Made by a program: the position numbers and the translations under genes
Part shown: positions 22,322 through 56,837 of the stretch, piece by piece
Layout: every line of letters starts with the position of its first letter
How positions within the stretch are numbered: position 1 is the first letter of the stretch
Virus record (IMG/VR): IMGVR_UViG_3300032331_002067
Coordinates: 36,002-100,001 of that record
DNA: 64,000 bases
Direction: 5' to 3' (one strand)
From: a virus
The notes under the pieces: model-generated
Told to the model about the DNA's origin: nothing
Databases searched by the model: none
What the model saw: only the letters and a program-made list of their open reading frames with translations

Positions 22322-23092
22322 TCAATTTGTATTCACTTCTACATTTATCTCTAGAATCTTATTGGAGGAATGTTGAGCTACATTATCTTGTCCTATGTTA
22401 GTGATCTCGTATCCGAGAGACTCAATGTAGGAGAATAGATCTTGTCTCCGGGGCTGGAACCATTCCTTGTTTGCCCACGCTTCAAAGAGAATAGGTGGGA
22501 ACCCATTTCGCTCAATAGTATTTTTTGCGCCCACGAGAACAGCGAGTTCCAAGCCTTCTACATCGATTTTGATGAGCTTGATATCGTTCATCTCAAGTGA
22601 GTCCAATTTTAAGACAGAAATCAATTCCGTGTTACCACTGGAGGTACACTCATAACCGTTCTCACGCACCTCGTGATCAAGGCTAAAGGCTCCTACATTC
22701 AATTCTGTGGAATAGTCCGGCAACTGAATATAAAACGAATCTGGCTCGTATGACAAACCGAAGTTTTTGGCGAATACATTGTCACACCTGTTGAGTAAGA
22801 TATTTGAACAAAGCTGGTAAAACACGATTCTTTGCGGTTCAAAGGCATGGAACTCAAACTGTGGATACTTCTTTGCTAACGGCACACAAAAGCTTCCTAC
22901 ATTGGCTCCGATGTCCAAGACCAAACCCTGCTCACCAATCCTGAGATAGTGATCCAAGAACATTCCTGAGAATGTGAGAATGTGTGGCTCATGCCCAACT
23001 TTATTCTTTAAGGCATCTGAGATGAGATCATCTTTATCAAACAAGAAAAAGCGACAATCCCCTCCGTCATATATTGAAGATGATGGAATCAT
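22322..23092 (-). CDS. FkbM-family SAM methyltransferase
   Basis: 256 residues. VLDIGANVGSFCVPLA at about 58-73 is the SAM-binding motif I, FEPQ the acidic motif II, and LIKIDVEGLELAVLVGA the characteristic FkbM block. Members usually O-methylate sugars or polyketides. It heads toward the 3' end of a minus-strand run with a 2-oxoglutarate oxygenase and a P450, suggesting modification of a glycan or small molecule. Confidence 0.85.
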   Translation of the reverse strand: MIPSSSIYDGGDCRFFLFDKDDLISDALKNKVGHEPHILTFSGMFLDHYLRIGEQGLVLDIGANVGSFCVPLAKKYPQFEFHAFEPQRIVFYQLCSNILLNRCDNVFAKNFGLSYEPDSFYIQLPDYSTELNVGAFSLDHEVRENGYECTSSGNTELISVLKLDSLEMNDIKLIKIDVEGLELAVLVGAKNTIERNGFPPILFEAWANKEWFQPRRQDLFSYIESLGYEITNIGQDNVAQHSSNKILEINVEVNTN

Positions 23093-23104
23093 ACTTTCCT
23101 TTTG

Positions 23105-23323
23105 CTATTCATTATCTCTATTATACCAATGAGACTCACGATATCTCTGCATGGCGTTGATATTTGAGACTGTTTGTGCAACCTGTCGATGCCGGCGATT
23201 CCGTGACCACAAGCTATTCTGAAACCACGAGGAAACAGCCACATACCCGGCATAACCCACACACAATATTGCAAACCACCTTGCAATCACTACATAGTAT
23301 CTTTCGGGTGCCACCTTGGTCAT
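23105..23323 (-). CDS. Small membrane protein
   Basis: 72 residues, ATGA overlap with the oxygenase gene. A hydrophobic helix at about 8-32 (YVVIARWFAILCVGYAGYVAV) is followed by a basic, Arg-rich tail. An overlapping frame ending at 23089 is a shadow. Confidence 0.6.
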   Translation of the reverse strand: MTKVAPERYYVVIARWFAILCVGYAGYVAVSSWFQNSLWSRNRRHRQVAQTVSNINAMQRYRESHWYNRDNE

Positions 23324-23883
23324 GCCATTCCTCCATCGGGAAGGAAGTTTATGTTTATTGCGAATCTAAAAGGACTCAATACGGGATTGCTTCCCGCATG
23401 AAGGATGTCTCCATCAAACACAACCGCCGTTCCTTTTTTGGGATATACTTCTTTTACAACATTGAGGTCGTCATCATAGAAGTATGTAGGACCGTCTGAG
23501 TCGTTCACATAGTACAGACAGACAAGATGTGGAACCAAACTGCCATCCTCTAGTTTTAAATCAGTGTGTGGTGTCTGAGGACTACACCGGGATGGGTTTG
23601 GCATCGTGACATTTACCTTTGCTCGATACAACCGGATGTCTCCATGCTTATCCTGAATAGCATTGATTATTGGCAATACAACAGGAAGATTCGGAGACTG
23701 TTTTTCTTCCCCCATCATAAAGAGATGATTGGTTAGTTGTTTACCGGAAGAGGATGAGCTGCCAGTTTCTAATGGATCGTTATGAATATTTTGAAAACGG
23801 TAAGGGAATGCGTTGCTAGAGACAAACTCTTCAATTAGGTTCTGATCCTTAACTGGTATGAAGTTTTCAAAAATATCTATCAT
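23320..23883 (-). CDS. 2-oxoglutarate/Fe(II) oxygenase (prolyl-hydroxylase type)
   Basis: 187 residues. The metal triad is visible: H106-T-D108 and H162 (DGDILHAG), with R173 (SPFRFAINI) for 2-oxoglutarate. Such enzymes hydroxylate proteins, nucleic acids or metabolites; the substrate is unknown. It shares its strand and tight spacing with an FkbM methyltransferase and a nuclease. A second, unrelated-looking enzyme of this class lies at 51696. Confidence 0.85.
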   Translation of the reverse strand: MIDIFENFIPVKDQNLIEEFVSSNAFPYRFQNIHNDPLETGSSSSSGKQLTNHLFMMGEEKQSPNLPVVLPIINAIQDKHGDIRLYRAKVNVTMPNPSRCSPQTPHTDLKLEDGSLVPHLVCLYYVNDSDGPTYFYDDDLNVVKEVYPKKGTAVVFDGDILHAGSNPVLSPFRFAININFLPDGGMA

Positions 23884-27284: not shown

Positions 27285-27890
27285 TTATCTTTGTTGAACA
27301 AAAGTCTGGAATGGAGCACCTGTGTATGGATCAAATTTAGATGCTACAGAGAGAGCTTTGTTGATAGCAGTCTTGGCTTTGGCTAGAGGGAGTTCCTTGC
27401 CATTGCTAAGGGCGTGCAGAGCGCCTAGGGCGTAGGATGAGCCACTGCCAATGGCGTAGATACCGGCTTTATCTGAAGTCCAAGAGTAGTCTCCATCAAT
27501 AATATAGATCGTTCCGTTAATAACGACAACTATTTGTGATGAATGTTCAGCGATATGATCTTTCGCATCATTGTCAGGCATGGCATATCCGGTACTCTCA
27601 AAGCATTCACGCAAGGATGGAACAAATTTTTGAGTTATGAACTGATCAAGTTTTGGACCAGATGTTACAAAACTTGGAACTGGGGGAATAAAGGCGTGGT
27701 GCAATATGTTGATAGCTCTTACATCGCCAGCAGCTCCGAGAAGGTATCTGCCATTTTGAGCAACTTTGCTACTACCTGTCCCTAGAGTTGTTATCTGATA
27801 AGCCATTCCTGATTCATCAAAAGATGAAACTCTGGAGTCAGTACAGATAACTGCATAATCATCGCCTTGAATTCCTACAATTGTTGTCAT
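27285..27890 (-). CDS. Proteasome beta/HslV-like Ntn peptidase
   Basis: 201 residues from ATG at 27890, so that loss of Met exposes Thr as in proteasome beta subunits; a 9-residue longer start is rejected for that reason. TTIVGIQGDDYAVICTDSR contains Thr1 and the Asp17 equivalent, SSKVAQNGRYLLGAAGD the Lys33 equivalent and turn, and GSGSSYALGAL the later conserved Ser/Gly. It may form its own ring, or compete with or exploit the host proteasome. No ATPase partner lies nearby. Confidence 0.85.
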   Translation of the reverse strand: MTTIVGIQGDDYAVICTDSRVSSFDESGMAYQITTLGTGSSKVAQNGRYLLGAAGDVRAINILHHAFIPPVPSFVTSGPKLDQFITQKFVPSLRECFESTGYAMPDNDAKDHIAEHSSQIVVVINGTIYIIDGDYSWTSDKAGIYAIGSGSSYALGALHALSNGKELPLAKAKTAINKALSVASKFDPYTGAPFQTFVQQR

Positions 27891-27991
27891 TTCTGCCTTT
27901 AGATACTGATGGGGCACCCCAAGATATCAGGTCTAATCTTTCGAAATAGTACCCGCCAAAGAGTGCCCCAAACTTAGTATAGCGTAGTTTG

Positions 27992-35517: not shown

Positions 35518-37148
35518 TGGATAACAAAATGGTTCTGTCACAGGATGATGATGACTTCAGCGAAGAAATTGACGACCTTTCTTATATTTCAGCTTTAGCT
35601 AAAGTCGATGCAGTTGACCCTTTTTCTGAAGTAAAGATTTCAAGTCTTTCTCCAAAAATGAAAAGAAAAGCTCAGCGTCTTCAAAAAAGACATGAGGGAG
35701 AAGACGGAACAAAGTCTAAGTATCTTGATCCAGAAGTTGTTAACGGTTATTCACTATGGGATATTGTTAATCCGCCATATGATTTAGATAGTCTTGCAAT
35801 CCTATACGACCAGAGTTCAATTCACTATGCAGCTATTAATGCAAGAGTAATGAATACCGTTGGTCTTGGTTTTGAATTTGATGAAACTCTTAAATCAAGA
35901 AGGCGTATTGAAAAAGTACAGGGTGAGCCATTAAAACTTGAAAAGACTCGTAAAAGCTTACAAGATCTTAGGGAAGAGCTTGAAGTTCTTTTTGAAAGTT
36001 TCAATGTTGAAGAAACATTGATTGAGACAATGGTTCGTGTTTGGCAAGATTGTCTTACAGTCGGTAATGGTTATTTAGAAATTGGTCGCAATAATGAGGG
36101 CAAGGTCGGTTATATCGGTCATATCCCTGCAACGATGGTTCGTGTAAGAAGGCGTAGAGATGGCTTTGTGCAACTCTCAAGGGCTAACAAGATCCAAGCT
36201 ATTTTCTTTAGAAACTTTCAAGACCTAGAGATGGAAGATCCCGTTAATGGCGATCCAAAGCCAAATGAAATTATTCATTTCAAGATGTATTCTCCAAACA
36301 GCACTTACTACGGTATTCCTGCAGCAGTTTCTGCAGCAGCAGCAATCATTGGGGATAAATTTGCAAAAGAATATAATATTGATTATTTTGAAAATAAGGC
36401 TATTCCTCGTTATGCAATTATCCTTAAAGGTGCAAAACTAAGCAATAAGTCAAAAGCTGAACTTGTTAATTACTTCCGCAATGAAGTTAAAGGTAGAAAC
36501 CACGGAACACTTGTTATCCCTCTTCCTGCCAGTATTGGTTCTGATTCAGATATCCGATTTGAGAAACTTGAAGCTGGAGTTCAGGATGCTTCATTTGATA
36601 AGTATCGTAAATCTAACCGTGATGAAATCCTCGTAGCCAACAGAGTTCCTGCACCAAAAGTTGGTGTTTATGATAATGCAAACCTTGCTGTATCACGAGA
36701 TGCGGATAAGACATTTAAGATGCAAGTAATTGGTCCAGACCAAGCAATTATTGAAAAGAAGATCAACAGACTTCTTGCTGAGTTCACAGACCTCCTTCAG
36801 TTCAAGCTTAAGAAGATTGACTTGCTTGATGAAGATATGGAATCAAGAATTTATGACCGTTACCTCAGAACTGAAGTTATCAGTCCTAATGAGGTTAGAG
36901 GTAAGATTGGATTCCCAGAACGGAAGGATGGCGATGATGTCCTTCCTTTCCCAACAAAGATCAAACAAGAGAACGCAGGAGCACCAGTTGGAAATTCCAA
37001 CAATGCTTCCTCTAATCCACCAAAATCTAGATCAGACAGTGGAGCAACACCAAGTGGGGTTCAGGGTTCCGGAGATCAAAAAGAAAGAGGTCAGGCACAA
37101 GACTCGGGTGATAATACAACCGCTAATACTGACCAAGGAGGAAACTAA
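35517..37148 (+). CDS. Portal protein, PBSX/HK97 type
   Basis: 543 residues. Conserved blocks include YDLDSLAILYDQSSIHYAAINARV, LTVGNGYLEIGRN, and YYGIPAAVSAAAAIIGDKFAKEYNIDYFENKAIPRYAII, typical of PBSX-family portals. The C-terminal 60 residues are polar and Gln/Ser-rich. It forms the dodecameric DNA channel. No terminase gene precedes it in the window. Confidence 0.9.
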   Translation: MDNKMVLSQDDDDFSEEIDDLSYISALAKVDAVDPFSEVKISSLSPKMKRKAQRLQKRHEGEDGTKSKYLDPEVVNGYSLWDIVNPPYDLDSLAILYDQSSIHYAAINARVMNTVGLGFEFDETLKSRRRIEKVQGEPLKLEKTRKSLQDLREELEVLFESFNVEETLIETMVRVWQDCLTVGNGYLEIGRNNEGKVGYIGHIPATMVRVRRRRDGFVQLSRANKIQAIFFRNFQDLEMEDPVNGDPKPNEIIHFKMYSPNSTYYGIPAAVSAAAAIIGDKFAKEYNIDYFENKAIPRYAIILKGAKLSNKSKAELVNYFRNEVKGRNHGTLVIPLPASIGSDSDIRFEKLEAGVQDASFDKYRKSNRDEILVANRVPAPKVGVYDNANLAVSRDADKTFKMQVIGPDQAIIEKKINRLLAEFTDLLQFKLKKIDLLDEDMESRIYDRYLRTEVISPNEVRGKIGFPERKDGDDVLPFPTKIKQENAGAPVGNSNNASSNPPKSRSDSGATPSGVQGSGDQKERGQAQDSGDNTTANTDQGGN

Positions 37149-37725: not shown

Positions 37726-39813
37726 ATGGAAAACTTTAATTTATCTTTCCCGATTGAAATGATCAAGAAAGAGCAAAGAATTATTAGTGGTATCGCTACT
37801 GCTGATAATGTTGACAAATCTGGTGATATTGTTGACTTTTCTGCATCTCTTGAAGCATTTAAAAATTGGGGAGGGAACATCCGTGAGATGCACTCCCCTA
37901 TTGCTGTTGGCAAGGCTGTCAATTTTGAGCCAATCAAAATTAAAGGCGAAGATGGCGAAGAGTACAATGCTATTCGTGTAGATGCTTATATCTCAAAGGG
38001 TGCACAGGATACTTGGGAAAAGATTCTTGATGGCACTCTTCAGGCTTTCTCTATTGGCGGGAAGATTCTTCAAAAGAGTGAATCAGCAGAAAAGATGTTC
38101 CGAGGAAGACCTGTCAATGTTATTGAGAAGTATGTTCTTGGTGAATTGAGCGTGGTTGATAATCCAGCTAACGCTTTGGCAACCGTTGATATCATTAAGA
38201 GAAGTGATGATGGCGGTCTTGACTATGTTCTTGATAAAGCTTCTCCCCTCAAAGATCCCAAGGGCGGTCTTACAGCAGCAGGTCGTAGACACTTTAAAGA
38301 AACAGAAGGTGCAAATCTCAAACCCGGAGTTAAGGGTCCAGCAGATACCCCAGAGAAGATGCGTAGAAAAGGTTCTTTCCTTACACGCTTTTTCACAAAT
38401 CCATCTGGTCCTATGAAGGACTCAAAGGGAAGACCAACAAGGCTTGCGCTTTCAGCAGCAGCTTGGGGGGAACCAGTCCCGCAGAACGCACAGGATGCAG
38501 CAGAACTTGCTGCAAAAGGTCGCAGACTTCTTGAACGCTATCAGAATACTAAAGAAAAAAGTATGAAGAAAGAAGGGGAAGTCACATCAGGCTCAATGGG
38601 AGCTGGTATCAAGAACCCTACTCAAGGTAGTTTTCAAGGTCCATTCCCCGGGAAGCCTAAGAAAAAGAAAAAGGAGTTTTCTATGAAAAATAAAATTAAG
38701 AAAAGCTCTCCATTGACTGAATCGTTGAACAATCTTTTGTCCAACACCGCAGTTCTGTACTTCTCTTCGCATAGAGCGCATTGGAATGTTGAAGGTGTAG
38801 ATTTCCGTGAATATCATGATTTGTTTGGTGAAATTTATGAAGATACATATGATTCGATTGATCCAATTGCAGAAAGTATTAGAAAACTTGGAGACTTTCC
38901 AATTGCATTGGGAGATGCAGAGGATATGTCCTCATACGAGGATGACTCGGCAACAACAGACGCAAGAGAGCTTGCAATGGACATTTATGAAAAGAACAAG
39001 GTGTACCTAGAAATGGTAAAAGAAGCCTTCAATGTAGCAAACGATTCAGATGAACAAGGTGTCGCAAATCTCCTTGCAGGAAGAATTGAAATGCACGAAA
39101 AGTGGGATTGGCAACTTCGTGCTTCTCTTGGTATTTCAACAGGAACGCCTACAGAAGATCCTGAAGAGGATGGAATGGAAGATGATTCGTCTGAAGAGTA
39201 CCCAACTGAATCACTTACTGCAATGCTTACACAAATTTTAGAAATGTCTAATAAATCTGATACAGACGCAGATTTAGTTAAAATGCAAGAGAATGAATTG
39301 CAAAATGATGCAAATTATGATAAGGTCTTAAACATGAATGAACAAGAATCAAGATTGTCGCTACTTAAGCGTATGGTCAATTGGCTTGTTCCCGATGTAC
39401 AAGAAAATGCTTCAATCCAAATTGAAGTAACTGAAAACACACAGGAGGAAATTATGGATATTGAAATCCTTAAAGATGCTCTTAGTGCTGTGGTTGACGA
39501 AAAACTGGCTGCCTTCGCTACTTCAATTAAAGAAGAGGTTGAAGCTTCGGTTCAAGAAAAAATCGACACCATCACCAAGGGATTTGAAGTTCAAACAACT
39601 GAACTTCAAGAAAAATTAGAAGCAACAGAGCAATCTCTGTCCGAGCAAGAGGAGAAGGTTCAAGCCTTCGCTAAGTCCGGTGCTATCAAGAAAAGCGTTG
39701 ACCCAGAAGATGATGAAGAGGGCGAGGAACTTACCAAGTCTGCTCCATCATCAATTTGGGACAATACATATTTGCCACAAGGTTTAATTAACTCCTTGGG
39801 CTATAAGTCATAA
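37726..39813 (+). CDS. Prohead protease - Dps-like - scaffold fusion
   Basis: 695 residues. Residues 1-160: XkdF-type prohead protease with His56 (MHSPIAVGKA) and Ser109 (FSIGG). Residues 175-275: DUF6321-like region (KDPKGGLTAAGRRHF, GSFLTRFF). Residues 325-480: a Dps/ferritin-like four-helix domain (LNNLLSNTAVLYFSSHRAHWNVEG, H352, H364, D379, E383; the usual acid at 368 is Gly). Residues 577-695: coiled-coil scaffold. Strong internal ribosome sites precede in-frame ATGs at 38683 (AAGGAG) and 39454 (AGGAGG), exactly at domain borders, so nested shorter products are likely. Confidence 0.85.
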   Translation: MENFNLSFPIEMIKKEQRIISGIATADNVDKSGDIVDFSASLEAFKNWGGNIREMHSPIAVGKAVNFEPIKIKGEDGEEYNAIRVDAYISKGAQDTWEKILDGTLQAFSIGGKILQKSESAEKMFRGRPVNVIEKYVLGELSVVDNPANALATVDIIKRSDDGGLDYVLDKASPLKDPKGGLTAAGRRHFKETEGANLKPGVKGPADTPEKMRRKGSFLTRFFTNPSGPMKDSKGRPTRLALSAAAWGEPVPQNAQDAAELAAKGRRLLERYQNTKEKSMKKEGEVTSGSMGAGIKNPTQGSFQGPFPGKPKKKKKEFSMKNKIKKSSPLTESLNNLLSNTAVLYFSSHRAHWNVEGVDFREYHDLFGEIYEDTYDSIDPIAESIRKLGDFPIALGDAEDMSSYEDDSATTDARELAMDIYEKNKVYLEMVKEAFNVANDSDEQGVANLLAGRIEMHEKWDWQLRASLGISTGTPTEDPEEDGMEDDSSEEYPTESLTAMLTQILEMSNKSDTDADLVKMQENELQNDANYDKVLNMNEQESRLSLLKRMVNWLVPDVQENASIQIEVTENTQEEIMDIEILKDALSAVVDEKLAAFATSIKEEVEASVQEKIDTITKGFEVQTTELQEKLEATEQSLSEQEEKVQAFAKSGAIKKSVDPEDDEEGEELTKSAPSSIWDNTYLPQGLINSLGYKS

Positions 39814-48366: not shown

Positions 48367-48725
48367 TGGCTATTAATCAGAAAAGACTGGCTGGTCCAAC
48401 TCAGCTCTCCACAGCCAATACCGTTCAGTATACAACTCCATTAAGCACAACTTCAATTGTAAAACAAATTGTTATGTGCAATACAACAGCTTCTGCCAAA
48501 ACTGTAACAATCAGACTCAAGCCAGCCGGAGTCGCAGAAGCCAATACTCAAGATTTCATGAGCGCATTCAATATTAATGCAAATGAAACAATTTCTTTTG
48601 GTTGCTCAATCGTTCTTACAAATAACGGCAACACAGCTAACGCTACAAATAGCGATCAGCTTATTGCCTTTACTTCCGCCAACTCTGCGGTAAATGTTAT
48701 GTTTATGGGAATTGAAGAAGCATAA
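48366..48725 (+). CDS. Hypothetical virion beta-sandwich protein
   Basis: 119 residues from GTG at 48366, overlapping the preceding stop. Homology with the product of 42036 (IVMCNTTASAKTVTIRLK / NLCNFTSSAATCNVHLL). The stop overlaps the next ATG. Confidence 0.6.
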   Translation: MAINQKRLAGPTQLSTANTVQYTTPLSTTSIVKQIVMCNTTASAKTVTIRLKPAGVAEANTQDFMSAFNINANETISFGCSIVLTNNGNTANATNSDQLIAFTSANSAVNVMFMGIEEA

Positions 48726-49453
48726 TGGCTGGTCTTGAACGATACCCAGCAGCCAATGCTTTCGCTTCATTCATTGATGCTGCTGACTCTGTTTACGGTA
48801 CTGGCTCTGATGGGTCAGTTACTATTTCTGCAAATACAACTCTGACATCAGATAAATTTTATTATAATCTAAATGTTGATTCAAATGTTGTCTTAAATAC
48901 AGCGGGTTATCGTGTCTTTGTTAAAAACCTTCTTACTCTAAGTTCTAATTCAACAATTGGTGTTGGTACAGCAAATACATATACGATGACAACAGGTTTT
49001 TCCGGTGTTGGTTCAATACGGGGTGGTGGAGGTATTTCTGGTGCTGTTACAAACAGTCTTGGCGGGAATAGTGCAACACAAACTGCAGCTGTCCCATCAG
49101 TAGCACAGGGCGGTACTGGAGATAAAACAACAACAAGTGGTTACTGGTATCAACCCATTCAATCTACTAAGGGTTATGTCATCAATGCAAGTAATACAAC
49201 CCCACTTTTCCTGTATGGAGGAGCTGGTGGATCAGTCGGTGTAGGCGGTGGAGTTGTTATAATTGGGGCAAGATACATTTCGGCTACAAGTGCCAATATA
49301 AAAGCCACTGGAGCCACTGGAGCGAATGGTGGAGGGGGTGGAGTAATCATTCTGGTATCAACATATGCATCAATCCCATCAGGTATCACAACAGATGTGA
49401 CTGGTGGAACAAGCTGTGTTGCGGGTACGGTAATTTACTCCCAATTGGTTTAA
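48725..49453 (+). CDS. Gly-rich tail protein, copy 1
   Basis: 242 residues. N-terminus AGLERYPAANAFASFIDAADSVYGTGSDGSV and the following DKFYYNLNVDSNVVLNTAGYRVFVKNLLTL are shared with the next gene. The C-terminus is rich in Gly (GGAGGSVGVGGGVVIIGA), a phage-adhesin style. Confidence 0.65.
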   Translation: MAGLERYPAANAFASFIDAADSVYGTGSDGSVTISANTTLTSDKFYYNLNVDSNVVLNTAGYRVFVKNLLTLSSNSTIGVGTANTYTMTTGFSGVGSIRGGGGISGAVTNSLGGNSATQTAAVPSVAQGGTGDKTTTSGYWYQPIQSTKGYVINASNTTPLFLYGGAGGSVGVGGGVVIIGARYISATSANIKATGATGANGGGGGVIILVSTYASIPSGITTDVTGGTSCVAGTVIYSQLV

Positions 49454-49454
49454 T

Positions 49455-51068
49455 ATGGCTGGCTTAGAAAAATTCGGTTCACCCGCAAAAGTTCAAAGAA
49501 TTGGTAATGACTCTATTTACGGAACGGGGTCAGATGCCAATGTCGTAATTGCCTCGAATACTTCTCTTTCTAGAGATATGTATTATAATAATTTAACAAT
49601 CAATACCGGAATAATGTTAAATACAAATGGTTTCAAAGTATTTGTAAAAGGAACTTTAACTCTTAATGGAAACATTGGTGTTGGCTCCGGAGATACTGCA
49701 AACTCAAACACTATCTCTGGACAAACACCTGCACTAACATCAACAACAGTCTCATTGGGTGGTAATGCTTTTGGTAACACTTACACAGCTTCTACGATGT
49801 CTACAAATCTTTTAAAAGATATATCTACTGCAATTCTTGGTTATTACATTGATACTAACTCTAATACAAAAGTAATCACCGGTGGTGCTGGTGGTGGTCA
49901 TGGTGTTGCTGGTACCGTCACTCCGGGAGCTGCTGGAACAGTAACACCGGCAACAGCTGGATCGGGTGCTGGAGCTGGTGGTGGAGGAACGCTCAGTAGA
50001 AATGCCCTCGCTCCGGGTGGTCCGGGAACTGCTGGAAGCAACGGATCAGCAGGCTCAACTCCTCCTGCAGCAGCAGCAGGCTCCACACCCCCCGCAGCAG
50101 CAGCGGGTGTGGCAGGAGCGGGTGGTCCAGTTGTGATTGTTGTCGCAAAATCTTTTGCTGGGGCTGGCTATATTATTGCTCAAGGCAAAAATGCTACCGC
50201 TGGTGGTGCATCTGCAACAGGAACGGGGGCTGGTCCAGCAGCAACGGGTTCAGGGGCTACAAACGGTGCAGCAGGCACAGCAGCTCCGGGTCAAGCTATT
50301 GCTCATCATTCAGACGGACATTCAGCATACATAACGGGTGATGGTACGCATGGTCACCATACGCCATATGGTGGTCATACACCGAACCTCCCTCATGGTA
50401 GTCATGTTCCTCATACATCTATGGGACTTCATCATGATAGATATGTTTATCATGCAGTCTATGTTGATGGAAGTGGTTGCGGTGATGGTGTACATGGTCA
50501 TGGTGCAGGGCACTATCATGCTAGTCCATACGGTCATTATCATGGGTATAGCCCACATGATGCTGGTGAAACTACATCAAACTATACTGCTATAAACGGC
50601 ATCACTCATACATACCCTCATCGCCCTCATTCGGGAGTTGCTTATTCTGGCAACACTCATCAGCAACATGTTGATTCAAGCCCAGAGCACCATAACTGGC
50701 ACTCAGGGGCAATGCAGTGTGCAGACTATATGGGACATCATTACCATACAGGAAGGCATCATGGAGCAAGAGTTGGTTATGGACATACAAATGCTCACCG
50801 TAATGCAGGTACAGTAAGTCATGTAGGTCACTTGCATGCTGCTGGGGGTGCTGCAGGCTCTGCTGGAACAAATGGGACTAACGGTTCAACTACTGCAGGA
50901 ACCAATGGATCAACAACTGCAGGAACTGCTGGTCAATCAGGCGGTGGTGGTGGTATAATTATCGTAACAGAGACTACCCCAGCAGGAATACAGACAAGTG
51001 TTTCTGGTGGTGTTGTCGGTAGTAATACTGCAAGTTCTGGTACAGTAGTAACTGTACTTAACGCATAG
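49455..51068 (+). CDS. Gly-rich fibre with histidine-rich insert, copy 2
   Basis: 537 residues. The first 120 residues match copy 1. Then Gly/Ala/Pro collagen-like repeats, and between about residues 280 and 460 an insert with about 38 His, many as HxH or HH, with one or two Cys. It returns to Gly/Ala/Thr-rich sequence and the shared C-terminal VIVVT motif. The His-rich part should bind iron, zinc or nickel, much as HxH motifs do in T4 gp37. Confidence 0.8.
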   Translation: MAGLEKFGSPAKVQRIGNDSIYGTGSDANVVIASNTSLSRDMYYNNLTINTGIMLNTNGFKVFVKGTLTLNGNIGVGSGDTANSNTISGQTPALTSTTVSLGGNAFGNTYTASTMSTNLLKDISTAILGYYIDTNSNTKVITGGAGGGHGVAGTVTPGAAGTVTPATAGSGAGAGGGGTLSRNALAPGGPGTAGSNGSAGSTPPAAAAGSTPPAAAAGVAGAGGPVVIVVAKSFAGAGYIIAQGKNATAGGASATGTGAGPAATGSGATNGAAGTAAPGQAIAHHSDGHSAYITGDGTHGHHTPYGGHTPNLPHGSHVPHTSMGLHHDRYVYHAVYVDGSGCGDGVHGHGAGHYHASPYGHYHGYSPHDAGETTSNYTAINGITHTYPHRPHSGVAYSGNTHQQHVDSSPEHHNWHSGAMQCADYMGHHYHTGRHHGARVGYGHTNAHRNAGTVSHVGHLHAAGGAAGSAGTNGTNGSTTAGTNGSTTAGTAGQSGGGGGIIIVTETTPAGIQTSVSGGVVGSNTASSGTVVTVLNA

Positions 51069-51076
51069 GAGATAAA

Positions 51077-51307
51077 ATGGATTTTACTTTAACAAGGGAA
51101 GATAAAATTAGATCACTTGATCAAGTTCTGGTATCAGTTCAGGTCAATTTGTTTAATTGTTTACTTGAAGCTGGCTATGACCCAGAGACTTTTGATGAAA
51201 CATCTTTTGAGATACCAGCAGAGGCTTTCCCTATGTCAATTTTTCATAGAATTCAAGAGCTTCTTGAAAAGCTTTCTAATATTAAGAATATTAAGAATAG
51301 TTTGTAA
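51077..51307 (+). CDS. Hypothetical small protein
   Basis: 76 residues with AGGAGATAAA upstream. Helical and acidic. No family recognised. Confidence 0.55.
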   Translation: MDFTLTREDKIRSLDQVLVSVQVNLFNCLLEAGYDPETFDETSFEIPAEAFPMSIFHRIQELLEKLSNIKNIKNSL

Positions 51308-51706
51308 ATGCGCAGGGTTATTTATTGCCCTTCAGAAGAATTTCTAGAAGAAGCTAGTATTTTAGCTAAAGATAGTCATCTTCCTATCAATATTGGTGGT
51401 TCAGAAGAGCTTGATTTACTTGATTTTGATAAAGAAAAAACACAAATTGTATTGATTCCTGAATTAAACAATATTAGTTATTTAAAAAATATATCTAAAG
51501 GTTTTCATCAAGTAATTATTATAAATAATGATTATACAACTTTTACAAAAAATATGAATATTCATTTTGAAAATAATTGTATTCGACCAAGTATTCTTGA
51601 AAAGCATTATGCAAGATTTTTTTTCCCATGCAATAATGCTGGGGAGTTTGAAGCTATCTTGTCTGATAGTATAGAGTTAGAAAAGGTCGTGTTTAGTGTT
51701 TGTTAA
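51308..51706 (+). CDS. Hypothetical protein
   Basis: 132 residues, directly after the previous stop. Rossmann-like start (RVIYCPSEEFLEEASILAK) and beta/alpha alternation. AT-rich, like the following genes. Unknown. Confidence 0.6.
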   Translation: MRRVIYCPSEEFLEEASILAKDSHLPINIGGSEELDLLDFDKEKTQIVLIPELNNISYLKNISKGFHQVIIINNDYTTFTKNMNIHFENNCIRPSILEKHYARFFFPCNNAGEFEAILSDSIELEKVVFSVC

Positions 51707-52286
51707 AAAAGAAAAACAACCAGCAATTTGGGTTTATGAAGAAGCTTTTGATTGTGGTGATTTTATTGAAAAAATTGAATCTGAATCAGAAAGAGAGTGG
51801 GGCTATATGTCTTGGTCGTCTTCTGCTACAGGTGGTGGAGACAAAGGACAAATTTCTGAGTATAGAACTTCTTATGAAATGTCTTTAAATGGTCTACTCG
51901 AAAAAGATATTGCAACTGATATTCAAGGTATTTCCAATCAATTTAAAGAAATTTTTGGAGATATTGACAAATGTATATGGGATTATAGAAACTGTTTTGA
52001 TTTAACATTACAAGGGAATGATGGTTTTAATCTGCTTAAGTATGGTCCTAGTGGTGAATATCATAATCATCATGATCATGCACCACAGAATGGTCGTGTT
52101 TTAAGCCTTGTTGCTAATCTTGGAGATGATTGCGAAGGCGGAGAACTAGAGTTCCCTTATTTTGATGTATCATTCAAATTGCAAAAAAACTCAGTAGCTC
52201 TATTTCCTTCTAATTTTCCGTATACACATATTGCGCACCCAGTAGTGAAGGGGCTAAAATATAGCTTAGTGACTTGGTTCCAATGA
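51696..52286 (+). CDS. 2-oxoglutarate/Fe(II) oxygenase (prolyl-4-hydroxylase-like)
   Basis: 196 residues from GTG at 51696, overlapping the previous gene. Iron ligands H125-x-D127 and H178, with Lys188 (GLKYSLVTW) in place of the usual Arg for 2-oxoglutarate. GGELEFPYFDVSF and FPSNFPYTHIAHPV match prolyl hydroxylases. ATGA overlap into the next gene. It could hydroxylate the Gly/Pro-rich fibres next door or act with the halogenase. Confidence 0.85.
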   Translation: MFVKKEKQPAIWVYEEAFDCGDFIEKIESESEREWGYMSWSSSATGGGDKGQISEYRTSYEMSLNGLLEKDIATDIQGISNQFKEIFGDIDKCIWDYRNCFDLTLQGNDGFNLLKYGPSGEYHNHHDHAPQNGRVLSLVANLGDDCEGGELEFPYFDVSFKLQKNSVALFPSNFPYTHIAHPVVKGLKYSLVTWFQ

Positions 52287-53386
52287 TTATGAAAAATATA
52301 TCCGAAATTGATACAACAAAATATACATGTTATGCATTTACAAAATGTAAAACAAATGTTCAAGTCTTGTCCATTCATCCGGAAGGTGAATTTGCCTACG
52401 ATGATTGTGAATTATTTTCTTGTGGTGATTATACAGTAATTGCTTTTGAGCACTTAACAACAGCAAGAGTCGATAATGCCTTTAAAATTACTTCGGAAGA
52501 AGGGTTCGATTATATTCAAGCTGACTCGTATGAAAAAAATTATGACTTTATAAATAATAACTATAATAAAGATAATACTGTTTTTTTGTATATGGATTCT
52601 GTATCAATGCCATCCTTTCTTGAGTCAGGAAGACCAATGACAATGCATGATGGTAGATGTGATTTATCGACATATGGTCCTGTTCCTTTTATCGTTACGG
52701 ATAATGGTCTTGGGGAACCTTTGATTAAAGAAGAATATCATCAATTATCAAATACTGTAAAAATGACATTTGGGTTTTTTGGTTCAGTAAGTAATTTTCA
52801 TGTTCTTAGACTTGAATGGAAAGATTATCCAGATAGTGCCTACAAAGATGTTAGCTCAGTTACTGGAATTGCTAGAACATTTATTGGGTTAGTCAAAATG
52901 ATAATTGAGTGGTCAGAGACAACAGAAGACCCTTGGAATAATGATGAAAGAATAGCTACAGCAGCCTACGCCGGTTTGATTGGTATGGGTATCCCACAAG
53001 AAGTTATTGATGAAATTAAAGAATATCAAGTTGATATGCCAATTAAATTGTTTTTACAAAATGACCCTAACTGCCGAGGATCTCTTGACGAAAAATCTGA
53101 ACTGCCTCCTTTATTCAAAAAATGGTTTTTATCGAAAATCCGCTATGAATCACTTAATTCACTAAATTCTAAAAATCCTGAAATTGATATTCCAGACAAT
53201 ATCCTTCAAGACGAAAAAAGAAATATCTATATTCCAATTTACGATTTTTTCTTATCTCAAGGAATAAATGCTGAATCTAACTATCTTAATGAACTTTTGC
53301 ATATGATTGATAGTGGACAGTTCAAAACAGATATAGATGGGCTTATTCTTGCCAAAAATCAAATAAAGAAAGCTTTACATTTTTAA
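52283..53386 (+). CDS. Unrecognised protein in halogenase operon
   Basis: 367 residues from ATG at 52283 (ATGA overlap). No known motif: N-terminal alpha/beta half with VLSIHPEGEFAYDDCELFS, and a helical C-terminal half. Its placement between the oxygenase and the halogenase, with tight coupling, implies a shared task such as substrate carriage. Confidence 0.65.
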   Translation: MIMKNISEIDTTKYTCYAFTKCKTNVQVLSIHPEGEFAYDDCELFSCGDYTVIAFEHLTTARVDNAFKITSEEGFDYIQADSYEKNYDFINNNYNKDNTVFLYMDSVSMPSFLESGRPMTMHDGRCDLSTYGPVPFIVTDNGLGEPLIKEEYHQLSNTVKMTFGFFGSVSNFHVLRLEWKDYPDSAYKDVSSVTGIARTFIGLVKMIIEWSETTEDPWNNDERIATAAYAGLIGMGIPQEVIDEIKEYQVDMPIKLFLQNDPNCRGSLDEKSELPPLFKKWFLSKIRYESLNSLNSKNPEIDIPDNILQDEKRNIYIPIYDFFLSQGINAESNYLNELLHMIDSGQFKTDIDGLILAKNQIKKALHF

Positions 53387-53388
53387 TT

Positions 53389-54852
53389 ATGAATAAAATA
53401 ACAATCGTTGGGAGTGGTACAGCGGGTCTTGTCTCTGCTCTTATTCTTCATCAAGCTTTTCCACTGAAAAATATATCAATTGTTTCATCAAGTAAAATTG
53501 GAATCATTGGTGTTGGCGAGGGCAGTACAGAGCATTGGAAGATGTTTATGGAAATGTGCAATATACCTCTTGCTGAGCTTTTGATTGAAACAAGGGCTAC
53601 TCATAAAAATGGTATTAGGTTTGAGAATTGGACAAATCATACTCCAGACTATTTCCATTCAGTTGGGTTTGCTGATACCGTTCCTCCTTTTAATGTTTAT
53701 GGTCTTTATAACCACTTAATTAAAGATGGCAAGACCCTTACAGAAAATACAGTAAGTCGTTCTATTATTGAAAATAAAGTTAGAACTATTAATCCACATA
53801 CATCCGTTAATCAATATCATTTTGATACAAATGCTTTAAATAAATATTTAACAAAAATTGCTCAATATCGAGGTATTTCTTTTATTGATGCCGAAGTTAT
53901 TGATGTAAATCTGAATGAAGAAAATGGATTGATTAAATCAATTTTGCTTGATACTAATGAAATTGTTGAATCAGATTTTTGGCTAGATGCTACCGGTATT
54001 AAAAGATTTTTAATATCAAAAGTATCAGAGCCAAAATGGAAATCATTTTCTAAGTATTTACAAATGGACTCAGCAATCCCCTTTCCAACACCTAGTGATC
54101 CATCAGGACAGATTAGACCATACACAAGAGCAAGAGCTATGCCTAACGGATGGGTTTGGGAAATCCCTACACAGGATAGAAGGGGTAATGGCTATGTCTA
54201 TTCCTCATCTCATTGTTCTGATGAACAAGCTATTCGTGAAGTGTCTGAGCTTATGGGGTTTGATGTTGAGCCATTTAAAACTATTAAATTTAATCCCGGA
54301 CATTTAGAGGAGATGTGGGTCAAGAATTGCGTAGCTGTTGGTCTTGCATCTGCTTTTGTTGAACCCATTGAGGCGACATCTATTGGCGGAACCATTCAGC
54401 AAATCCGTTGTTTGGTTGAAAATCTTTCTACATACCAGCCAACGCATAATAAGGTGCAAAATGTTTTTAACAAAAAAATGAATGAGATGATGCAAAACAT
54501 TCTTGCATTCATATCATTGCATTATATCTCTGATAGAGAAGATACTTCCATGTGGAAGGAGCAAAAGGAAATGCCAAAACCTGACTATCTCGTAGACCTA
54601 CTTGATCTGTGGAATGAAAGACCTCCATTTCCTTTTGACATATCTTCAAATAATTATGAGATGTTTCAAGTTCCCCACTTCTACCATGTAGTTCAAGGAC
54701 AAAAATTGTTTAATTCGGATATGGCAAGAGTAATGCTCAATTCTTTTAATTTAGAAGAAAAAGCTAAATACGCTGCTTACGATGCTAAACTTAAACAATC
54801 AGATCACGAGAGGATTGACCATGCTGAGTCGCTCAGAGAAATTCAGATATAA
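53389..54852 (+). CDS. Flavin-dependent tryptophan-type halogenase
   Basis: 487 residues. FAD-binding VGSGTAG at 7-13, GVGEGST at 41-47 (usually GVGEAT), catalytic Lys73 in ATHKNGIRFENW, the WxWxIP signature GWVWEIP at 254-260, and FVEPIEATS near 323-331 are present. These enzymes chlorinate or brominate Trp or similar aromatic groups with FADH2 from a partner reductase, which is not encoded here. The full motif set suggests an active enzyme. Confidence 0.9.
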   Translation: MNKITIVGSGTAGLVSALILHQAFPLKNISIVSSSKIGIIGVGEGSTEHWKMFMEMCNIPLAELLIETRATHKNGIRFENWTNHTPDYFHSVGFADTVPPFNVYGLYNHLIKDGKTLTENTVSRSIIENKVRTINPHTSVNQYHFDTNALNKYLTKIAQYRGISFIDAEVIDVNLNEENGLIKSILLDTNEIVESDFWLDATGIKRFLISKVSEPKWKSFSKYLQMDSAIPFPTPSDPSGQIRPYTRARAMPNGWVWEIPTQDRRGNGYVYSSSHCSDEQAIREVSELMGFDVEPFKTIKFNPGHLEEMWVKNCVAVGLASAFVEPIEATSIGGTIQQIRCLVENLSTYQPTHNKVQNVFNKKMNEMMQNILAFISLHYISDREDTSMWKEQKEMPKPDYLVDLLDLWNERPPFPFDISSNNYEMFQVPHFYHVVQGQKLFNSDMARVMLNSFNLEEKAKYAAYDAKLKQSDHERIDHAESLREIQI

Positions 54853-55591
54853 GATTGCACAATATCGTCAAGATATTCCAACACCAAAACAAAACGAAAT
54901 TGTAATTATTCCACAAGATAATCGTATTATAGATTTTCCTCCCTATGCCGGAAGTTCACAACTTCCTTCGTGGTGGAAGGATTTAAGTAAAGGTCGTGGT
55001 TCAATCCGTAGGTGCCAAGGAACATATGATTATGTGTCTTATGGTGTAGTCATGCCCTTATGGACTAACATTACTATTAGACCAAATATGAATAATACAA
55101 TGTATGATACAAAAGCTGATCATATTGATAATCATATGCAATTCCCTATTGAGGGGTTTAATGCGGAAAGTGCAAATGGATGCCCAATTGAGCATACTAA
55201 ATCCCTTGAGACAGGACAATATATAAAACTGGTTTCTCCTTGGCGTTTCATTACAGCAAAAAATGTTTCTTTGATGACACTCCCAATGCTTCTTGAGCCA
55301 GATCCTCGTTATTCAATCGTTCCCGGAATTGTTCATACGGACTACTATCATCAAATTAATGTTGTTATTATTCCTCATACTAATGAAGAATTTACTATTC
55401 CTGTGGGTACCGCAATTCAACATATGATTCCCATAAGGAGGGATCATAATTTTAAAGAAGTTGTTTGGGGCAATGAATCTATGTATAAGTTTGTCGCTCA
55501 CTCAGGTCTAGGCGATGGTAACTTGGTTTATGGTGATGACCAAAAATCATCTATTTATCGAAAATTACAAAGAAAAGCTGATTTAAGATGA
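54821..55591 (+). CDS. DUF6065-like protein
   Basis: 256 residues from ATG at 54821 with GAGAGG upstream, overlapping the halogenase by 32 bases. Contains LPSWWKDLSKGRGSIRRC, WTNITIRP, LVSPWRFITAKNVSLMTLPML and PVGTAIQHMIPIRR, the layout of the DUF6065 family that recurs next to phage and cyanophage oxygenase genes. Beta-rich (cupin-like). Function unknown. Confidence 0.7.
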   Translation: MLSRSEKFRYKIAQYRQDIPTPKQNEIVIIPQDNRIIDFPPYAGSSQLPSWWKDLSKGRGSIRRCQGTYDYVSYGVVMPLWTNITIRPNMNNTMYDTKADHIDNHMQFPIEGFNAESANGCPIEHTKSLETGQYIKLVSPWRFITAKNVSLMTLPMLLEPDPRYSIVPGIVHTDYYHQINVVIIPHTNEEFTIPVGTAIQHMIPIRRDHNFKEVVWGNESMYKFVAHSGLGDGNLVYGDDQKSSIYRKLQRKADLR

Positions 55592-55869
55592 AAAAAATAA
55601 TTGATGCAATCAAGACGATGAGTAGTCGTTCTTATTGGACAAGGGTTAATACAGTAGAGGCTTGGGGATTTGCAACAAAGATTGCAATCATCTTTCCGGG
55701 TCTTCTTCTCGGTAAACAATTCTGGTGGTTATACATCTTTGCCATTATCTCAAGCGTTGCCTTAATCTGGACTTCGACAAAAAAGACTCTTCCGACTATT
55801 ATCCTATTCAATGTGATGTGGGTGATTCTAGCCAGCTTGTCTATTTTGAAGCACTTTTGGTGGTTTTAG
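55588..55869 (+). CDS. Membrane protein
   Basis: 93 residues, ATGA overlap. Three hydrophobic stretches (TKIAIIFPGLLLG, WWLYIFAIISSVALIW, IILFNVMWVILASLSIL). Possibly a second holin or a membrane anchor for the operon. Confidence 0.6.
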   Translation: MKKIIDAIKTMSSRSYWTRVNTVEAWGFATKIAIIFPGLLLGKQFWWLYIFAIISSVALIWTSTKKTLPTIILFNVMWVILASLSILKHFWWF

Positions 55870-55910: not shown

Positions 55911-56837
55911 ATGGAAGATGTAAAAGTAAACACATCCAAGACCCTAACCCTCACTCTCCCCGCTGACCCCACTTCAAATCTGGTCAGTGTCTCTGTCTAT
56001 CATGAACTGGGAGACCTCGTATATGGTCCTGTAAGCGCCTCTAGAGCCTCTACGGGAGTTTATACAATCACATTAGGACAGCAAGCGTCTGGTCTCTATA
56101 TTTTAAATGCAGCAGGCAGACATCGTGCGGAATTTACTTACACGGTTTCCGGAGCTTCTTATACACAGGCTCAGTATATTAATGTCTACACCCCCTATAC
56201 CACTGCTGCCGATTTCTTCATCTCCTATCCAGAACTGCAAGAATCTAAAGGTTCTCTTTTTGACCGTTATGAAAAGCGGGTCAGAGCAATCATTGATACT
56301 TACTGTGGTCAGTCATTTGATTATTACCCAAACAAGTCAATTACTATTGATGGCAATAACCATGCGAACCTACATCTCCCATATCCTATTTACACTTTAA
56401 CCAAAGTTACTCAAGATCCGGGTCGTACATATCAAGAAGTTCTTTTTGATGCAACTCTTCCATCTGTCAATAATGTTGAGAGAGTTAAGCAGCCTTTAAA
56501 CTTTGAAGCCTCTTATTACATTCGTTTCAAAACAGACACGATTGATAAAAATAACACTCAGATTGTTCCTAACGGATGGAAAGCTAAGTCTGAATATAAG
56601 ATTGAAGGAGACTTCGGTTGGGGGTATGTTCCTAATAATGTAAAGTTTGCAGCTGATCTTTTGATTGCTGACTTGATGAATGATGACGCTGAGTATAGAA
56701 GGCATGGTATCCACAGCATCGATATGGATATCGTTAAGATGCAGATGAAGCAGTCGTTCTACGAATCAACTGGAAACATTGAAGCTGATGTCTACTTGAT
56801 GGACTACACACTGTTTGTGATGGATTATGTGGTCTAA
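55911..56837 (+). CDS. Head-tail adaptor with N-terminal Ig-like domain
   Basis: 308 residues. First 95 residues beta-rich (TLTLTLPADPTSNLVSVSVYHELGDLVYGP), then a helical adaptor: FFISYPELQESKGSLFDRYEKRVRAIIDTYCGQSFDYYP, typical of gp6/connector proteins. TTACTG-N17-TATACT lies just upstream. Confidence 0.7.
   Translation: MEDVKVNTSKTLTLTLPADPTSNLVSVSVYHELGDLVYGPVSASRASTGVYTITLGQQASGLYILNAAGRHRAEFTYTVSGASYTQAQYINVYTPYTTAADFFISYPELQESKGSLFDRYEKRVRAIIDTYCGQSFDYYPNKSITIDGNNHANLHLPYPIYTLTKVTQDPGRTYQEVLFDATLPSVNNVERVKQPLNFEASYYIRFKTDTIDKNNTQIVPNGWKAKSEYKIEGDFGWGYVPNNVKFAADLLIADLMNDDAEYRRHGIHSIDMDIVKMQMKQSFYESTGNIEADVYLMDYTLFVMDYVV

Follow-up and report, generated by a model that had tools for sequence, protein, structure and literature searches.

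A halogenase and oxygenase cassette that accompanies Gly-rich phage fibres: a candidate module for adhesin modification

Flavin-dependent halogenases encoded by phages are usually classed among the auxiliary metabolic or host-protection genes. The cyanophage enzyme VirX1 (PDB 6qgm) has, to our knowledge, no known natural substrate, and we have met it discussed as a biocatalyst and never as a modifier of adhesins. The structure 6frl represents what we take to be a BrvH-type bacterial halogenase. Gly-rich adhesins of the T-even gp38 and S16 type carry no chemical modification that we are aware of, and we know of no description of a virion post-translational modification in which an adhesin is halogenated or hydroxylated. 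Fibre regions are known for recombination. A proposal of adhesin modification was not found in the literature that we searched, most of it outside subscription journals. Published readings of these phage genes comprise auxiliary metabolism, host protection, DNA repair and biosynthesis (PMC2984593, PMC9146016, PMC7824862, PMC10611076). VirX1 is a halogenase in vitro, according to the title of Gkotsi 2019 as cited in PMC10452541.

The locus discussed here lies in a window of 64,000 nucleotides taken from a 100,001-base virus record (IMGVR_UViG_3300032331_002067, positions 36,002 to 100,001), and its genes are all on the plus strand. A linked pair of fibre genes comes first. The product of 48,725-49,453 is a Gly-rich fibre scaffold protein of 242 aa devoid of a His-rich tip, and that of 49,455-51,068 is a Gly/Ala/His-rich fibre of 537 aa, the proposed substrate, in which a Gly-rich scaffold is joined to a low-complexity tip. 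The His-rich tip segment (fibre residues 281-461, encoded by 50,295-50,837) contains 38 His, 15 Tyr and 1 Trp in 181 aa. The Gly/Ala-rich fibres that the initial annotation had placed upstream are present, the His-rich part being confined to the second one. Two proteins conserved in the cassette follow, of 76 aa (51,077-51,307) and 132 aa (51,308-51,706), and the latter gene is overlapped by 11 nt at the start (51,696) of a gene for a 2OG-Fe(II) oxygenase resembling prolyl 4-hydroxylases (51,696-52,286; PF13640). An ATGA at 52,283 is common to this gene and to the next, which encodes a 370-aa protein assigned to no family (52,283-53,386; 367 aa from the ATG at 52,283). After a gap of 2 nt comes a flavin-dependent halogenase of the Trp_halogenase family (53,389-54,852; PF04820), whose gene overlaps that of a dUTPase-fold protein (54,821-55,591) by 32 nt, or by 71 nt if the latter starts at 54,782. 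A second ATGA, at 55,588, joins the dUTPase-fold gene to one for a 93-aa protein (55,588-55,869), probably membrane-bound as judged from its sequence, which is highly conserved and ends the block in many relatives. All open reading frame positions given earlier were borne out, as was the tight coupling of five genes: within the operon, two of the four junctions are ATGA, one is an overlap and the last a short gap.

The identities first proposed for the two enzymes are unambiguous in Pfam. The halogenase matches PF04820 above the cut-off over residues 3-447 (E 1.1e-102) and the oxygenase matches PF13640 (E 4e-12). The two halogenase signatures read earlier are in place, Lys73 at 53,605-53,607 and WxWxIP as WVWEIP at 54,151-54,168, and the GxGxxG and EPxE motifs, the latter with the catalytic Glu, are also intact. 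An alignment of 59 non-redundant halogenases shows the catalytic Lys in 57 of the 57 rows that have a residue there and EPxE in all 58 gap-free rows. Among PDB entries, 6frl matches the window enzyme best, over 425 residues; the C-terminal stretch with the residues by which PrnA/RebH bind free tryptophan lies outside the PDB alignments. In the oxygenase, HxD (125-127), His178 and Lys188 are invariant in 48/48 homologues, and solved prolyl hydroxylases resemble it weakly (E 0.0012). Its domain and HxD...H...K pattern make it prolyl-4-hydroxylase-like, with a putative specificity for prolyl residues. Compared with L001, the nearest relative, the halogenase has a dN/dS of 0.039, a sign of strong purifying selection; the dUTPase-fold protein has 0.042 and the oxygenase 0.106.

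The product of 54,821-55,591 had been labelled DUF6065. This label was rejected after a Pfam scan, in which the window protein has no DUF6065 (PF19541) match at E<=0.1 and only 4 of 33 relatives match, weakly (best E 0.0042), a remote resemblance only. The profile of its relatives matches solved dUTPases, and the top 23 Foldseek matches of its predicted structure (pLDDT 83.7) are all dUTPases, with E 1.2e-4, a probability of 1.00 and moderate TM-scores. In dUTPase motif 3, His takes the place of the catalytic Asp, VID/VVD becoming VHTD. For this reason we do not file the protein as a dUTPase enzyme; given the predicted fold, we prefer to see in it a dUTPase fold put to a new use. The 370-aa protein is predicted to form a beta-sandwich plus a helical domain (pLDDT 81.8); it has no convincing match in Pfam, PHROG, PDB sequences or PDB folds, and the annotated phage collection holds no homologue of it. 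The 93-aa protein, probably a three-helix membrane protein, retains 76-92% identity across 80 loci of otherwise divergent phages, an unusually high conservation for a small phage membrane protein. It is also encoded in contigs sharing no other cassette gene, yet the annotated phage collection gave no match to it.

Elsewhere in the window, an actinobacterial host is suggested by genes for WhiB, an Rpf-like transglycosylase domain, a proteasome-subunit domain and ThyX. A scan of genome contigs recovered the same cassette, beside a fibre with 20% His, on a 9-kb contig of an Actinomycetota MAG, itself likely to be phage DNA. The phage-encoded protein with a proteasome-subunit domain lies at 27,285-27,917 on the minus strand, and a single open reading frame at 37,726-39,813 combines a prohead-protease-like protein, DUF6321 and a ferritin-like domain. 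At 22,322-23,883 on the minus strand, another 2OG-Fe(II) oxygenase gene adjoins an FkbM methyltransferase gene; homologues of this oxygenase occur near halogenases in the marine phage contigs L006-L008 and L010-L013. In phage contigs L006-L008, L011, L392 and L393, many oxygenase-like genes are accompanied by two to four different halogenases, and in L393 a protein resembling an adhesin, with 34% Gly, is encoded just upstream too.

Related loci show that the cassette and the fibres form one unit. In most of the 80 IMG/VR loci fetched by starting from the conserved 93-aa gene, the fibre pair and the cassette are kept together, and in nearly all related loci a homologue of the 48,725-49,453 fibre stands ahead of the cassette. 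The gene set, listed earlier from the window alone, recurs beyond chance in the neighbourhood comparison, with the same order in dozens of phages: fibre, fibre, 76-aa gene, 132-aa gene, oxygenase, in some cases the 370-aa gene, halogenase and dUTPase-like gene. The block as a whole changes place. In the window it stands after a 96-aa gene and before a head-tail gene at 55,911; in L036 all of it, from a 119-aa gene to the 93-aa gene, is placed before a 661-aa gene instead, and in L069/L070 fibres and cassette are present twice. A search based on the fibre gave the same picture and added loci with oxygenase and dUTPase-like genes and no halogenase; these keep the fibre pair, with His-poor tips. 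Fibres of two halogenase-less loci (L170, L173) end in other low-complexity tips, made of NNAPTY(G/T)FTAG and NE(I/V)RLVEGRVN repeats, and adjoin oxygenase and several dUTPase-fold genes.

The composition of the fibres differs with the presence of the halogenase. His content is 3.4-11.6% in 35/35 halogenase-linked fibre clusters and 0-2.5% in the 23/23 others. On the tree of the fibre scaffold, however, the His-rich and halogenase traits change together only 1-3 times, with one change well supported, and the correlation within the family of the window thus has no independent statistical support. The His-rich tip was for this reason rejected as statistical proof of His halogenation in spite of the separation in 58 clusters, the more so as L391 has a halogenase and a fibre with 1.8% His. 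What the comparison does show is persistence: tips that have diverged below the clustering threshold retain their His-richness. Fibre Pro content likewise separates cassette-bearing, Pro-rich fibres from cassette-free ones (AUC 0.98), with the same caveat of shared ancestry. Each of the 123 halogenase-linked fibres has at least 9 His and at least 7 Tyr. Trp is absent from 3 of the 123, and some VirX1-linked adhesins lack it as well; these Trp-free proteins rule it out as an obligatory target, and tryptophan is probably not the required residue. To judge from these counts, halogenation would more likely be aimed at His or Tyr than at Trp. Against modification of the adhesin stands the fact that cyanophage adhesins away from halogenases have His, Tyr and Trp counts similar to those of halogenase-adjacent ones.

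A comparable arrangement recurs in unrelated marine phages. In the T4-like cyanophages syn9, S-RIM44, S-SZBM1, S-WAM1, P-RSM6 and P-TIM40, one or two halogenase genes follow Gly-rich adhesins in the tail-fibre cluster, and 2OG oxygenases or unannotated genes lie downstream of them. The S-SRM01 halogenase has a tail fibre on one side and an adhesin tip protein on the other, and that of DSL-LC01 comes after two collagen-like fibres, which were left out of the main linkage count. By sequence (1271 bits to PDB 6qgm), VirX1 corresponds to the second of the syn9 halogenases, and the gene after that one belongs to the dUTPase-fold family of the window (E 8e-35), a family often present at VirX1-type loci. 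With VirX1 as sole query and loci with enough upstream sequence retained, a Gly-rich adhesin was encoded within 4 kb in 60/60 loci, that is in 15/15 clusters, which are not fully independent since relatives share descent. The figure is 1/8 for P-SSM2-type halogenases, and across three whole phage genomes, positions no more than 3 kb from such an adhesin make up about 5% of the sequence. On the halogenase tree, adhesin linkage requires at least 4 changes. Halogenases are linked to Gly-rich adhesins beyond chance. Many phage halogenases are not fibre-linked; those of S-B64, S-MbCM6, S-SSM7, Syn1 and S-SCSM2R have no Gly-rich adhesin annotated nearby. As for the virion itself, proteomics of S-SZBM1 lists proteins 51, 52 and 53, and a text search of that paper did not find adhesins 48-50 among the virion proteins (PMC9146016); their absence could be due to low abundance, to a scarcity of tryptic sites or to modification.

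We propose that the cassette is a maturation module for the receptor-binding fibre of the phage itself, a reading to which, on sequence comparison, we give somewhat better than even chances. The oxygenase would hydroxylate residues of the low-complexity, Pro- and His/Tyr-rich tip carried by the Gly-rich scaffold, and the halogenase would halogenate residues of the same tip. During assembly the fibre may be presented or handled by the small accessory proteins and by the dUTPase-fold protein, which is probably a trimer lacking catalytic activity; the cassette genes presumably form part of the late region. Modification would change the chemistry of the tip, namely its hydrophobicity, His pKa, metal binding and protease resistance, and could in this way alter adsorption. 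The fibre as substrate, halogenation as reaction, the residue, the helper roles and late expression are all points that we infer, and His/Tyr halogenation with Pro hydroxylation is the most economical guess at the chemistry, not a result. Action on the adhesin best explains why the cassette follows the adhesin through moves and duplications, why its enzymes stay intact and why the association recurs with other scaffolds. The broader idea, that several unrelated phage lineages halogenate and hydroxylate their own receptor-binding adhesins and that VirX1-type halogenases have this as their natural role, is more tentative, and we rate it a little short of even.

The main rival is production of a halogenated small molecule, such as a chloro- or bromo-indole or a tryptophan derivative, that affects the host or competitors, the genes then being auxiliary metabolic genes. 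The literature treats phage halogenases and oxygenases in this manner (PMC2984593, PMC9146016, PMC7824862, PMC10611076), some phage halogenases lie away from fibres, and the closest PDB relative of the window halogenase is a bacterial enzyme. Such a product leaves unexplained the joint travel and duplication with fibre genes and the siting of VirX1-type halogenases beside Gly-rich adhesins in every cluster, and the cassette contains no other biosynthetic genes; we hold this explanation to be unlikely, while granting it real weight. The initial annotation had proposed either fibre modification or a host-acting compound. Because the cassette moves and duplicates with the fibres and the linkage recurs with unrelated adhesin scaffolds, the comparative evidence favours the fibre; among the names given in that annotation, DUF6065 is the one to be corrected.

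A variant keeps the fibre as substrate and makes the flavoenzyme a flavin-dependent oxygenase or a cross-link-forming enzyme that has kept the family motif. Membership of the family is by itself no proof of halide use, and oxygenases do accompany the flavoenzyme; yet there is no variation in the Lys that hypohalous acid chemistry requires or in its partner Glu, and VirX1, a relative in the same genomic setting, is a halogenase in vitro if the title cited above is followed, so that we regard the variant as improbable. We find it more improbable still that fibre-adjacent DNA is simply a recombination hotspot gathering unrelated morons whose adjacency has no functional meaning. Recombination is a known feature of fibre regions, and optional genes do vary in the block (the 370-aa gene, a second oxygenase), but about 35 fibre clusters share the same three families in an identical order, the block has moved as a unit and the same pairing is seen with unrelated adhesins. 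Least probable of all, in our estimate, is that, late in infection, the enzymes modify the surface or the proteins of the host, for superinfection exclusion or lysis: the block does end with a small, probably membrane protein, but this 93-aa protein is also encoded in contigs lacking the cassette (L075, L082, L083, L096).

Modification of the adhesin, if true, means that phages change the chemistry of their host-binding tip post-translationally and that this chemistry is not readable from the adhesin sequence alone. The adhesin link offers a concrete, checkable substrate for phage halogenases, which would then be a source of protein-acting enzymes useful in biocatalysis.

Compared with known systems, the window halogenase has its best PDB match in 6frl; BrvH is a bacterial enzyme not known to be accompanied by fibre genes, unlike the halogenase described here. 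The 54,821-55,591 protein resembles the dUTPase superfamily in predicted fold and in the motif 3/4 region, and differs by His in place of the catalytic Asp, a longer N-terminus and linkage to fibres instead of nucleotide genes. The fibre, like T-even gp38 and S16-type adhesins, combines a Gly-rich scaffold with variable segments that in those adhesins bind the host; cyanophage adhesins match Pfam Gly_rich_2, and a Pfam scan gave no such match for the window fibre. Halogenated His and Tyr do occur in structural materials of marine animals, for example in a sponge skeleton with bromohistidine and halotyrosines (PMC8659048), a precedent by analogy only. VirX1 shares enzyme family and phage origin with the window enzyme, and its copy in syn9 likewise has Gly-rich adhesins as neighbours, together with a dUTPase-fold gene from the family seen in the window; the window and syn9 halogenases are only about 30% identical, and the phage type and adhesin scaffold differ.
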